From: Alienimonas californiensis
Lineage (GTDB): Bacteria > Planctomycetota > Planctomycetia > Planctomycetales > Planctomycetaceae
Direction of reading: 5' to 3'
DNA length: 64,000 nucleotides
NCBI RefSeq assembly: GCF_007743815.1
Contig: NZ_CP036265.1
Span: forward strand, 2,932,823-2,996,822
A program made the translations under genes and the position numbers. Shown in pieces: positions 13,617 to 49,805 of the stretch. Numbering within the stretch: the first letter of the stretch is position 1; each line of letters begins with the position of its first letter. The notes under the pieces are model-generated. The model saw only the letters and a list, made by a program, of their open reading frames with translations. It ran no database searches and was not told the DNA's origin.

Positions 13617-14546
13617 ATGCGCCCCCGCATGACGGCTCCTTCCGAGTTCGCCCCCGCCGCCCCCGCCACGATCCCGTTCGGCCGGCCGCACGCGGCCCGG
13701 TCGGCGGGGGGGCCGCGAATTCTGGCGTTGATGAATCAGAAGGGCGGCGTCGGCAAAACCACGACCGCCGTGAACCTCGCCGCCGGCCTCGCCGAGGAGG
13801 GGGCCCGCGTGTTGCTGGTGGACCTCGACCCGCAGGGCCACGCCAGCCTGCACCTGGGCCTGGAACCGGTGGGCAGCGAACCGACGGTCTACGACGTGTT
13901 TCGCGGCGATCTGGAGGTGGAGCGCTGCGTGCGGCCCGTCGATCGCAATCTGCACGTGCTGCCGGCGAATTTGGACCTCGCCGCCGCGGAACTGGAACTG
14001 GTCGACGCCCCGAACCGGGAGACCGTCCTCCGCACCGCCCTCACTCGGCACTCCAATCAGGCGACCGCCGACGGACTGCCGTACGACTTCATTCTGTTCG
14101 ACTGTCCGCCGAGCCTCGGCGTGCTGACGATCAACGCCTTGGTCGCCGCCACGGAAGTCATCATCCCCCTCCAGCCGCACTTCTTCGCGCTGCAGGGCCT
14201 GTCCAAGCTATTCCAGACGACGGCGCTGGTCGCCCGCCGGCTGAACCGGGGGTTGGTCGTCTCCGGCGTGGCCCTCTGCCTGTACGAACGCGGCACCCGC
14301 CTGGCCGCGGACGTCTGCGAAGACCTGACTGCGTTCCTGGAGGACGCCGACCCGAGCGCCCCCTGGGCGAACACGCAGATCTTCAGCACCCGCATCCGGC
14401 GGAACATCAAGCTGGCGGAGGCGCCGAGTTTCGGCCAGCCGATCTTCAAGTACGCCCGCGCCTGCCCCGGGGCCAAGGACTACGCCGCCCTCACCCGCGA
14501 AGTGATTGCGATGGGCGCCCAGGCGCAACTGCGGGCCGCGGCGTAA
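13617..14546 (+). CDS. ParA/Soj-family ATPase
   Basis: About 309 residues. The deviant Walker A motif [14 protein letters not shown] sits near residues 42-55 after the strand ILALMNQ, followed by [14 protein letters not shown] (Walker A') and [18 protein letters not shown] (Walker B region), all diagnostic of ParA-type MinD-fold ATPases. Start could be the ATG at 13617 or the one at 13629. No parB gene or obvious parS array is adjacent, so this may be an orphan ParA positioning another cargo rather than the chromosome segregation protein. It is followed after 4 bases by a long inverted repeat and then by convergent gpsA. Confidence 0.88.
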
Positions 14547-14550
14547 CGGA

Positions 14551-14626
14551 GGCGAGCGGGGGGCGTCAGCCCCCCGTGTGTTCGCACGCCCCCGAGAACA
14601 CGGAGGGCTGACGCCCACCGCTCGCC
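14551..14626. repeat. intergenic palindromic repeat, family B copy 1
   Basis: Left arm 14551-14583 and right arm 14596-14626 pair over about 30 bases with few mismatches (core GGGCGTCAGCCC). It fills the space between the parA stop and the gpsA stop, so it may act as a bidirectional terminator. A second copy is at 44884-44956. Confidence 0.85.
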
Positions 14627-20030: not shown

Positions 20031-20208
20031 GTCTCCCCTCGCCCCCTTTTGGGGGAGAGGGGCCGGGGGTGAGGGGGCAGCGGCTCCCACACGCTCTTCA
20101 CCGTCCGCCTCGCTCGCCCTTCGTTGGCGTCGGCACTGCATGGGCGGAGACGGGTGAACCGTGCGTCACCCTCACCCCCGACCCCTCTCCCTCAAGGGAG
20201 AGGGGGAA
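20031..20208. repeat. MITE-like composite repeat, family D copy 1
   Basis: About 178 bases beginning GTCTCCCCTCGCCCCC and ending AAGGGAGAGGGGG. The ends form a long imperfect inverted repeat (the CCCTCACCCCCGACCCC block near the right end complements GGCCGGGGGTGAGGG near the left end), with a less conserved core. It is located between the PH-like membrane gene and convergent hflX. Other copies are at 24405 and 49630, the latter inverted. Confidence 0.85.
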
Positions 20209-24404: not shown

Positions 24405-24581
24405 GTCTCCCCTCGCCCCCCTTTTTGGGCAGCGGCGCCGGGGGTGAGGGGGCAACGGCGCCCGAAGGCTCTTCAATGCTTCATTCTCCCTCTCCGCCGG
24501 GGCGAGACAGGCTGAGCGGACCCCGGCGAACCGTGCTTCGGCCGCTCGCCCCCGACCCCTCTCTCTTGAGGGAGAGGGGGG
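24405..24581. repeat. MITE-like composite repeat, family D copy 2
   Basis: Same orientation as copy 1: starts GTCTCCCCTCGCCCCCC and ends GAGGGAGAGGGGG about 177 bases later, with matching GGCGAACCGTGC and CGCCCCCGACCCCTCTC blocks. It is the most diverged of the three copies. It occupies half of the 349-base space before the alpha-2-macroglobulin gene; the remaining ~150 bases show no other feature. Confidence 0.8.
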
Positions 24582-32837: not shown

Positions 32838-32891
32838 CGCTTGCGGGTTCGCGGCGGCCGAAAGCTGACGGTCCCCGCGAAACCGCAAGCG
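32838..32891. repeat. intergenic palindromic repeat, family C copy 1
   Basis: Left arm 32838-32854 (CGCTTGCGGGTTCGCGG) and right arm 32875-32891 (CCGCGAAACCGCAAGCG) pair with one mismatch around a 20-base loop. Lies between convergent small lipoprotein and hemC genes. Confidence 0.85.
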
Positions 32892-38628: not shown

Positions 38629-38684
38629 ACGCTTGCGGTTTCGCGGGGCCAGAGAGCCGTCGGGCGCCGCGAAACCGCAAGCGT
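38629..38684. repeat. intergenic palindromic repeat, family C copy 2
   Basis: Perfect 18-base arms 38629-38646 (ACGCTTGCGGTTTCGCGG) and 38667-38684 around a 20-base loop, between convergent channel and PspA-like genes. Likely acts as a bidirectional terminator. Confidence 0.9.
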
Positions 38685-41467: not shown

Positions 41468-41523
41468 TCGCTGGCGGTTTCGCGGTGCCCGAGAGCCCTC
41501 CGACGCCGCGAAACCGCAAGCGA
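41468..41523. repeat. intergenic palindromic repeat, family C copy 3
   Basis: Left arm 41468-41485 (TCGCTGGCGGTTTCGCGG) and right arm 41506-41523 (CCGCGAAACCGCAAGCGA) pair with one mismatch around a 20-base loop. It follows the LarA-like gene by 32 bases; the next gene is on the same strand. Confidence 0.88.
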
Positions 41524-43221: not shown

Positions 43222-44100
43222 GTGTTCGTGCCGTCGCCCGTGTTCGCCCGCCGTCTCCGCCGCTGCGCCCCGCTTCTGGCCGCGGCGCCGCTGTGCCTCG
43301 CCGGGGCCGCCGCGGCGTTGCCCGTCGCCCCGCGGGAGGCCGCGGCGATCGAGCGTTCGCCGCTGGGCGTCAGCGGTCACGTCGCCGCCAACCCCGCCGT
43401 CCCCGGCGGGCGGCACATTCACGCGCCGTTTCACCTGACGAACAGCGGGAACGAACCGCTGACGATCACCGCCGTCCAGCCGGACTGCGGCTGCCTCACC
43501 CCGCTGCTGAACCGCGAACTGTTCGACCCGGCCGCCCCGCCGACGATCGAACCGGGCGGGGCCGTGGAACTGATCGTCCGGGCCGACACTGCCCGCGAGG
43601 CCGAGGGCCCGCACGAACATGAGGTGACCGTCGTCTGCGCCACGCCGGCCGGCGAGTCCCTGCGTCAGACCGTCAAGCTGCGGTACGGCGTCGACCCGCA
43701 CGAGATTCGCATCGAACCGCCCGCGGTAATGGTCTACCAGCGGGAAGGGCAGACCACGACGGCGACCGTCACGGTCACGGATCGTCGCCTCGACCCGCTG
43801 ACGGTGCTCGCCGTCCGCAGCCCCACCGACCGCGTGCACGTCGCGGAACTCGACCCGGTCGAACGGGCCGACGGCGGCTGGGACTACCCGTTCGAGGTCT
43901 CCGTGATCGGCTGCGAGGGCGGCGGGAACGAGGTGGTCGTCGCCTTGGAGGTGGACGACCCGGCGGGGCGGTATCGCCTGCTCAAGATCCCGGTGACGGT
44001 GCAGTCGCCCGACCGCCTGCAACAGGCGGCGCTGGAACGGGTCGCCGCCTTGCCGCGGGAGTCTTCCGGAGACAAAAGTGGCGAGCGTGACTCCCGCTGA
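43222..44100 (+). CDS. DUF1573 domain exported protein
   Basis: 292 residues from a GTG (a second GTG two codons later is equally possible). Signal peptide near 12-32 with AAA cleavage region. The DUF1573 beta-sandwich follows from about 50, with FHLTNSGNEPLTITAVQPDCGCLTP by its FxLxNxGxxPLxI and CGC landmarks. A second Ig-like domain (about 155-270) has YVxREGQTT-type strands. DUF1573 proteins are periplasmic or surface Ig-like proteins of unknown specific function, abundant in planctomycetes. The last 23 bases overlap the next gene. Confidence 0.87.
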   Translation: MFVPSPVFARRLRRCAPLLAAAPLCLAGAAAALPVAPREAAAIERSPLGVSGHVAANPAVPGGRHIHAPFHLTNSGNEPLTITAVQPDCGCLTPLLNRELFDPAAPPTIEPGGAVELIVRADTAREAEGPHEHEVTVVCATPAGESLRQTVKLRYGVDPHEIRIEPPAVMVYQREGQTTTATVTVTDRRLDPLTVLAVRSPTDRVHVAELDPVERADGGWDYPFEVSVIGCEGGGNEVVVALEVDDPAGRYRLLKIPVTVQSPDRLQQAALERVAALPRESSGDKSGERDSR

Positions 44101-44959
44101 CTCTTTCGCAACGCCCTTGCCGTGGCCGAGCCGCTGGCGGCGGCGGGGGGCGGGGTGGGCGTCGCTGTTGCGGGTGCCGGTCTGCCCGGTGGGGCGACTG
44201 ATCCGGGGGCGGGCGCCGGCGTTGGACGACCCGGCCGCCCAACGGCAGGGGCTGACGATCGTGCTGCCGGGCATTCAGGGCCGCAGCTTCGCCGAGTACG
44301 ACCTCGCCGTCGGGCTGGCGCAGGGCGGCGTGCCGGGGCGGATCACGGTGGTCGACTGGACCAGCGGGTGGTTCTTCCGGGCGTTCTGGCACCTGCGGGA
44401 CGTGGCGATGCACGAAGCGGGCGGGGAAGAGGTGGCGAACTTGGTGGCGGAGCACCGCCGGCTCTACCCGCACGCCCCGGTGTACGTCGTGGGCTACAGC
44501 GGCGGGGCGTCGGTCGCGTTGCACGGGCTGGCCCGGCTGCCGGCGGGAACGACGGCGACCCGCACGTTGCTGCTCGCTCCGGCCTGCTCGCCCCCGATCG
44601 ACGCCGCCGCGCTGGCCGACCGCTGCGACCACGGCATCGACGCCGTGTGCAGCCGGCTGGACGTGCCGATTCTCGTCGGGCTGCTGACCACCTTGGGGAC
44701 CACGGACGGCCGCCACCGTCCCGGCGCCGGCTGGGGCGGCTTTGAACGGACCGACGTGCCCGCCTTCCGCGAGCACCACTGGCGGCCGGGGTGGGTCCGC
44801 CGGTTCCACTACGGCGGACACTTCGGAGCGGTGAACCGCGTCTTCGCCGCGGAGGCCCTGGCCCCGCTGCTGCTTTCCCACAGGGCGAGCGAGGGGGCGC
44901 CAGCCCCCCGTGCGAATAACCTTCCGGCACGGGGGGCTGACGCCCCCTCGCTCGCCTGA
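44078..44959 (+). CDS. alpha/beta-hydrolase-like protein with repeat-derived C-terminus
   Basis: 293 residues from the GTG at 44078, which has GGAG six bases upstream inside the end of the DUF1573 gene, so translation is probably coupled. The chain has LTIVLPGIQG (oxyanion strand), then YVVGYSGGASVALHGLA with the GxSxG nucleophile elbow at about 143-147. RTLLLAPACSP and a late FHYGGHFGAVN supply a candidate catalytic His. This fits a serine hydrolase of unknown substrate. The final ~25 residues (SEGAPAP...GADAPSLA) are encoded entirely by repeat B2, so they are probably not part of the ancestral fold. Confidence 0.72.
   Translation: MASVTPADSFATPLPWPSRWRRRGAGWASLLRVPVCPVGRLIRGRAPALDDPAAQRQGLTIVLPGIQGRSFAEYDLAVGLAQGGVPGRITVVDWTSGWFFRAFWHLRDVAMHEAGGEEVANLVAEHRRLYPHAPVYVVGYSGGASVALHGLARLPAGTTATRTLLLAPACSPPIDAAALADRCDHGIDAVCSRLDVPILVGLLTTLGTTDGRHRPGAGWGGFERTDVPAFREHHWRPGWVRRFHYGGHFGAVNRVFAAEALAPLLLSHRASEGAPAPRANNLPARGADAPSLA
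44884..44956. repeat. palindromic repeat, family B copy 2, inside a coding frame
   Basis: Arms 44884-44913 and 44927-44956 are about 30 bases and nearly perfect (core GGGGGCGCCAGCCCC / GGGGCTGACGCCCCC). The stop codon of the hydrolase gene follows the right arm immediately. Related to the copy at 14551-14626. Confidence 0.85.
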
Positions 44960-45128
44960 GACCGCCATCGGGACGCCGCCGAGGGCGGTCTGGGGGAATC
45001 CCGTTGCAAATCCTGCAAATCGGTCTTCCCGGCGCGCGAAGGTTCGTCTACCGTGGCCCCGTCAGCCGCGGCGTCGCTCTCCAAGACACCTCGGCGTTGC
45101 AACCACTGTGCCAGGCAAGGATGCCGCG

Positions 45129-46589: not shown

Positions 46590-46616
46590 GCCCCGGAGCG
46601 GATCGGGTTCGTGCGT

Positions 46617-46673
46617 CGCTTGCGGTTTCGCGGGGGGCGGGAGACTCTTTCCCCACCCGCGAAACCGCCAGCG
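46617..46673. repeat. intergenic palindromic repeat, family C copy 4
   Basis: Left arm 46617-46633 (CGCTTGCGGTTTCGCGG) and right arm 46657-46673 (CCGCGAAACCGCCAGCG), one mismatch, 23-base loop. It lies between the response regulator and the ABC ATPase gene, both on the plus strand. Confidence 0.88.
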
Positions 46674-49629: not shown

Positions 49630-49805
49630 GTCTCCCCTCTCCCTCAGGGAGAGGGGCCGGGGGTGAGGGTGACGCCCGGTTCACCCGCATCCGTCCTAGT
49701 AGTGACGAGCCGACCGGCCGGTGAGGGACCGGACCGTGAGCGGTATTTGGGAGTCGCTGCCCCCTCACCCCCGACCCCTCTCCCCCAAAAGGGGGCGAGG
49801 GGAGA
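49630..49805. repeat. MITE-like composite repeat, family D copy 3 (inverted)
   Basis: Opposite orientation to copies 1 and 2. Read on the minus strand it starts ATCTCCCCTCGCCCCCTTTT and ends CTGAGGGAGAGGGGAGACC, about 176 bases. The minus strand also carries the GGGTGAACCGGGCGTCACCC block seen in copy 1 as GGGTGAACCGTGCGTCACCC. Located between convergent permease and hypothetical genes. Confidence 0.85.

Follow-up and report, generated by a model that had tools for sequence, protein, structure and literature searches.

A REPIN-like palindromic repeat forms the predicted C-terminal tail of an alpha/beta-hydrolase in Alienimonas californiensis

The stretch of DNA analysed here (the window, 64,000 nucleotides of the Alienimonas californiensis genome) contains a 293-codon open reading frame that ends in a palindromic repeat (Table 1). 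An upstream ORF at 43222-44100 overlaps the start of this frame by 23 nt, which suggests translational coupling. Orthologues of its product are present in 24 of 59 related genomes, and an alignment of 26 sequences showed conservation of a GYSGG (G-Y-S-G-G) motif at Ser141 and of His248. Coding potential was scored with a home-made model, which, rather than curated annotation, also provided the gene ends reported here, and the score was positive in the hydrolase frame as far as the repeat edge. The orthologues, the conserved motif and histidine, and the coding score together indicate that the ORF is a real gene. Structure prediction from the single sequence gave a mean pLDDT of 34.7, and prediction from three sequences gave a partial fold with a mean pLDDT of 56.5. 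Foldseek with this modest three-sequence model matched cutinases (E about 1e-4) and lipases, and Pfam matches to the protein were below the cut-off. Scanning of the genome contigs with the single protein produced no match, and scanning with a three-row alignment detected A. chondri and one MAG. The nucleophile elbow GxSxG, the catalytic histidine and the modelled fold point to an alpha/beta-hydrolase.

Table 1. Positions in the window of the hydrolase gene, its terminal repeat and related features
Feature	Position	Strand	Evidence
alpha/beta-hydrolase gene, 293 codons, GTG start, TGA stop; core about residues 40-267	44078..44959	+	ORF; orthologues; alignment; Foldseek
Left REP arm GGCGAGCGAGGGGGCGCCAGCCCCCCGTGC	44884..44913	+	arm profile match; 29/30 complementary to right arm
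REPIN spacer/loop, 13 nt	44914..44926	+	sequence and fold
Right inverted REP arm, reverse complement GGCGAGCGAGGGGGCGTCAGCCCCCCGTGC	44927..44956	-	arm profile match, 20.9 bits
Predicted repeat-encoded tail ASEGAPAPRANNLPARGADAPSLA, codons 270-293	44885..44956	+	translation; beyond conserved core
TGA stop, adjoining last repeat base	44957..44959	+	sequence
Second hairpin AGACCGCC...GGCGGTCT	44959..44991	+	RNA fold; separate from repeat
Non-coding copy of same REPIN family, between convergent gene ends	14551..14626	.	sequence, profile, fold

Positions 44884-44956 form a 73-nt palindrome, GGCGAGC...GCTCGCC, composed of GGCGAGCGAGGGGGCGCCAGCCCCCCGTGC, 13 nt and GCACGGGGGGCTGACGCCCCCTCGCTCGCC, with its two 30-nt arms complementary at 29 of 30 positions. 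Read from the GTG, the palindrome keeps the frame of the hydrolase: its first base is the third base of codon 269 (AGG), the following 24 codons are wholly repeat-derived, and its last base directly precedes the TGA. An earlier note on this DNA had described the whole repeat as in frame and abutting the stop codon, as we also found; it had placed the start of the repeat correctly, but its end, 44959, took in the stop codon, and its estimate of about 25 repeat-encoded residues is reduced to 24. As single-stranded DNA the palindrome folds with -44.2 kcal/mol (z = -10), and an Rfam search with the repeat gave no family match at the gathering threshold. The second hairpin starts with the final base of the hydrolase TGA, a terminator-like position.

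The repeat belongs to a family dispersed through the genome. The core pattern GNGGGGCGTNAGCCCCNC (one mismatch allowed) gave about 96 matches in the 5.48-Mb genome compared with 5 for the reversed control, indicating that the family is not due to chance, and BLAST with the repeat gave 79 genome matches. Copy statistics were obtained from 80 fetched stretches, chosen for holding a repeat, plus the window, in which an arm profile detected 135 arms, arranged as 40 inverted pairs and 55 singles (95 elements). The arm is 28-30 nt long with the core GGGGGCGTCAGCCCCC; nearly all arms carry the 5' foot GGCGAG, with an A just before it in 57%. Among these sampled loci the total length of the 40 pairs had its mode at 77-78 nt, and the sampled pairs folded with z of about -9 to -10. 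The copy at 14551-14626, held to be non-coding in the earlier note, indeed sits between two convergent genes, with the plus-strand gene ending in TAA at 14545-14547 and the minus-strand gene ending in TGA at the other edge. Matches to the repeat family were also found in the congener A. chondri (39) and in several further genomes of the same taxonomic family. The flanks of the 40 pairs were searched for a target-site duplication, and no consistent duplication was found. TGA and TAG triplets at the element edges had raised the possibility of a MITE mobilised by a DDE transposase that targets TNA or CTAG; this candidate was dropped because the left flanks differ from the right ones. Two further repeat families were seen in the window: a palindromic one of about 54 nt, CGCTTGCGGTTTCGCGG...CCGCGAAACCGCAAGCG, at 32838-32891, 38630-38683 and 41469-41522 with a half copy at 46604-46643, and a longer one with GGGGGAGAGGGGCCGGGGGTGAGGGGG-type arms at 20032-20206, 24417-24580 and 49636-49805, which includes inverted copies of 76-88 nt.

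The genome contains five Y1_Tnp matches. One Y1 transposase gene (5144997-5145593, at 5.145 Mb) is preceded by a REP arm, and an inverted arm covers its 3' end; in the numbering of this locus (L010), arms at 1196-1224 and 1857-1885 surround the transposase ORF at 1264-1869. The TGA stop of this gene lies inside the downstream arm. Its product scored 26.2 bits against PF01797 (Y1_Tnp), over the cut-off of 23, and 36.5 bits (E = 4e-9) against NCBIfam NF047646 (REP-associated tyrosine transposase), which is below the curated cut-off of 80 bits for that family. Searching PDB sequences with the transposase returned nothing significant. The protein carries the motifs DHVH and YVRDQ (Y---Q), and this Y---Q motif is like that of IS200 and unlike the NP type of most RAYTs. 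Homologues in four genomes, including that of A. chondri, also have REP arms nearby. Three other Y1-like genes of the genome (L009, L011 and L012) have NHVH and a Y----Q spacing and are without this REP nearby. The family shows the features of REPs and REPINs: imperfectly palindromic hairpins of 20-40 nt in high copy, inverted doublets with a preferred spacing that fold into a longer hairpin, a mostly extragenic location near gene 3' ends, and a RAYT-like gene flanked by the same REP. Since the arms occur singly or as inverted pairs and are also found on either side of a Y1 (HUH) transposase gene, we classify the element as a REPIN and the product of that gene as its probable cognate RAYT. This RAYT-like Y1/HUH transposase, encoded at 5.145 Mb, probably mobilises the family in trans.

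We compared the repeat-encoded tail with the ends of the orthologous proteins. The earlier note had predicted that orthologues without the repeat would stop near residue 268; in the 26-sequence alignment conservation ends at about residue 266, and the proteins of the 25 relatives end 2-30 residues past the conserved core (median 7), with unrelated tails. The C-terminal residues of the hydrolase were also sought in genomes lacking the repeat and were not seen there. In the three-sequence model, built from a shallow alignment, the last predicted helix spans residues 254-266, and the tail beyond it has a pLDDT of about 35. In the one congeneric genome on which the sister comparison rests, that of Alienimonas chondri LzC2, the orthologue (68-70% protein identity) ends with LAPLLMERQRGGTSAA (ERQRGGTSAA, then the stop), 10 residues unlike the repeat-encoded tail. 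A search of this orthologue with the arm profile found a best local score of 1.4 bits, compared with 10-20 bits for real arms, and in a DNA alignment the two species have the 11-base stretch AGCGAGGGGGG in common at the corresponding place. Since the A. chondri end is without a recognisable repeat and the 25 relatives have short, unrelated tails, the hydrolase tail, as predicted from the DNA, is a lineage-specific, repeat-derived C-terminus.

Removal of the repeat was carried out in silico. Deletion of 73 nt left no in-frame stop downstream as far as 45400, and deletion of 72 nt yielded a product ending in LLLSHR. Since the 73-nt removal does not restore a nearby stop, a simple and precise insertion into the present flanks does not account for the event, and the exact pre-insertion site cannot be recovered from these sequences.

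To place the hydrolase among other genes, the gene ends pointing into elements were examined. In 93 sampled elements, 94 such gene ends were detected: 13 extend into an element by 3 nt or more, 9 more share their stop codon with an element edge, and 50 more stop 0-20 nt short of an element. Gene ends fell between -20 and +2 nt of the element edge in 59 of 94 cases, compared with 2 of 442 sides at random sites in the same stretches, a control that includes coding positions and shows location, not selection. Unrelated proteins, among them a GDSL-type esterase, a Hen1-like methyltransferase and an amino-acid kinase-like protein, also carry repeat-encoded tails, of 3-25 residues; these proteins were named from sequence and not by family search. 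For the two cases tested, the esterase and the methyltransferase, the A. chondri orthologues have other tails and no repeat; the sister match of the kinase (L072) runs off a contig end. At another locus (L077, 2993-3069), a REPIN lies between convergent genes whose TAG stops both overlap the element edges. Read-through of an entire REPIN was seen only in the hydrolase. Among sampled REPINs of up to about 100 nt, 117 of 198 frames are fully open, so that read-through needs no special explanation. Because repeat-encoded tails and stops recur at many copies, the hydrolase tail is a general side effect of where the elements lie. The earlier note had proposed that a repeat was captured as coding sequence, creating a lineage-specific tail; the differing orthologue ends bear this out, but nothing special about the capture survives, and the hydrolase is an ordinary, though well resolved, case that is not unique in the genome.

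These findings suggest an origin for the tail. A REPIN, made of two inverted REP hairpin sequences around a short spacer, was probably mobilised in trans by the REP-flanked, RAYT-like transposase. One copy would have landed at or just before the hydrolase stop codon after the split from A. chondri. Because the insert contains no stop in that frame and a TGA comes immediately after it, the insert could have become the coding end of the gene, its last 24 codons replacing or displacing a short, unconserved native tail. The enzyme core would have been left untouched, and the tail, if translated, was presumably tolerated because native tails in this hydrolase family are short and unconserved; it is most likely neutral. 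As the whole explanation of the tail, insertion of a REPIN copy at the gene end has in our estimate a probability of about 0.9. Against it stand the missing stop after the 73-nt removal and the single congener at 68-70% identity, with which insertion in this lineage is not strictly separable from loss in A. chondri.

Another reading places the effect of the element in the mRNA, where the hairpin would stall or slow ribosomes or protect the 3' end and so set the amount of hydrolase, with the peptide being irrelevant. The RNA fold of 44864-45000 (-103.9 kcal/mol compared with a shuffle mean of -66.4; z = -9.3) is in keeping with this, as is the crowding of gene ends close to element edges, where such effects could act, and RNA-level roles of REPs have been proposed (PMC3733652). 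However, a neutral insertion predicts the hairpin equally well, and the control used random sites from the same loci, intergenic or not, and so does not demonstrate selection for position. We consider such a role rather unlikely, and it is compatible with insertion of a REPIN copy, not exclusive of it.

The stretch AGCGAGGGGGG may be what remains of an arm that has decayed in A. chondri, in which case the repeat would be ancestral to both Alienimonas species and the tail would predate their split. The arm profile score at that place is not significant, however, no right arm was found in A. chondri, and the near-perfect arms in A. californiensis suggest a recent copy, which makes an ancestral repeat improbable. 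Still less probable is recruitment of the tail for hydrolase function, such as localisation, interaction or stability: the frame is intact and the arms match almost throughout, but a recent copy would also be expected to have near-perfect arms, the tail is unconserved across the hydrolase family and is a low-confidence coil in the shallow model, and unrelated proteins bear similar tails. It is scarcely credible that the ORF end is an artefact of annotation (an earlier end or another frame) or of a sequencing error that opened the repeat, since, error-prone as short GC hairpin-rich stretches are in sequencing, the hydrolase frame has no stop before 44957, the coding signal continues to the repeat edge, and open frames are unremarkable in REPINs.

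The hydrolase case resolves how a mobile, non-coding repeat may turn into protein sequence, in a phylum for which few REP systems have been described and in a genome that also holds the probable mobilising gene. Several independent cases in one genome allow tail origins to be compared, namely a stop shared with the element edge, a stop inside an arm, and full read-through. For annotation, odd C-termini in Alienimonas can be repeat-derived and should not be taken for conserved domains. We tentatively raise the possibility, which we hold with less than even confidence, that in Planctomycetaceae an undescribed RAYT/REPIN lineage (DHVH, Y---Q, GGCGAG) repeatedly rewrites gene ends near stop codons; if true, such a lineage would supply the proteome with new C-terminal tails again and again.

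The element was compared with known systems. It resembles the REPIN/REP and RAYT (TnpAREP) systems (Bertels & Rainey, PMC3116915; Di Nocera et al., PMC3733652) in its hairpin units with an unpaired 5' foot, in the dispersed occurrence of these units as singles or as inverted doublets forming a larger hairpin, and in their location near gene 3' ends and around a Y1/HUH transposase gene. REPs are also known to supply stop codons and coding ends: their termini often give TAG to flanking ORFs, and slightly more than 10% of intragenic REPs lie at a coding end (PMC3733652). The foot GGCGAG sets the family apart from the GTAG- and CGTC-tagged REP super-families (PMC3733652). Most RAYT classes described in PMC6006769 are of the Y---NP type, whereas the transposase here has Y---Q (YVRDQ). 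The TnpA-Y1 class 3 of Planctomycetes (PMC6006769) comes from the same phylum and likewise has HUH/Y1 proteins with high-copy REP-like hairpins beside the gene, but it is defined by NHVH, Y----Q and a CnGA foot, in contrast to DHVH, Y---Q and GGCGAG here; it is the three Y1-like genes without this REP nearby that resemble class 3. Judging from the foot GGCGAG and the Y---Q motif of the transposase, this may be a RAYT/REPIN lineage that is still undescribed.

Palindromic mobile repeats also enter proteins in other bacteria. Rickettsia palindromic elements are translated in frame within host genes (Ogata et al., as reviewed in PMC10969869) and are in this respect similar; as described there, they are about 150 bp long and lie inside genes, whereas the element here is 73 nt long, lies at the extreme gene end and, on length alone, falls outside the described families. 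The 3' end of the Erwinia carotovora amidase ECA3499 carries a fused ERIC (RU-1) sequence (Delihas 2007, PMC2759123); there, as here, a mobile palindromic repeat adds a C-terminal tail past the conserved domain, and homologues are uniformly shorter. That element differs in belonging to another repeat family, of 127 bp; in the amidase the normal stop has disappeared, and the stop in use stems from a point mutation within the repeat. Since C-termini encoded by REP and ERIC sequences have already been published (PMC3733652, PMC2759123), the hydrolase of A. californiensis is a further example.
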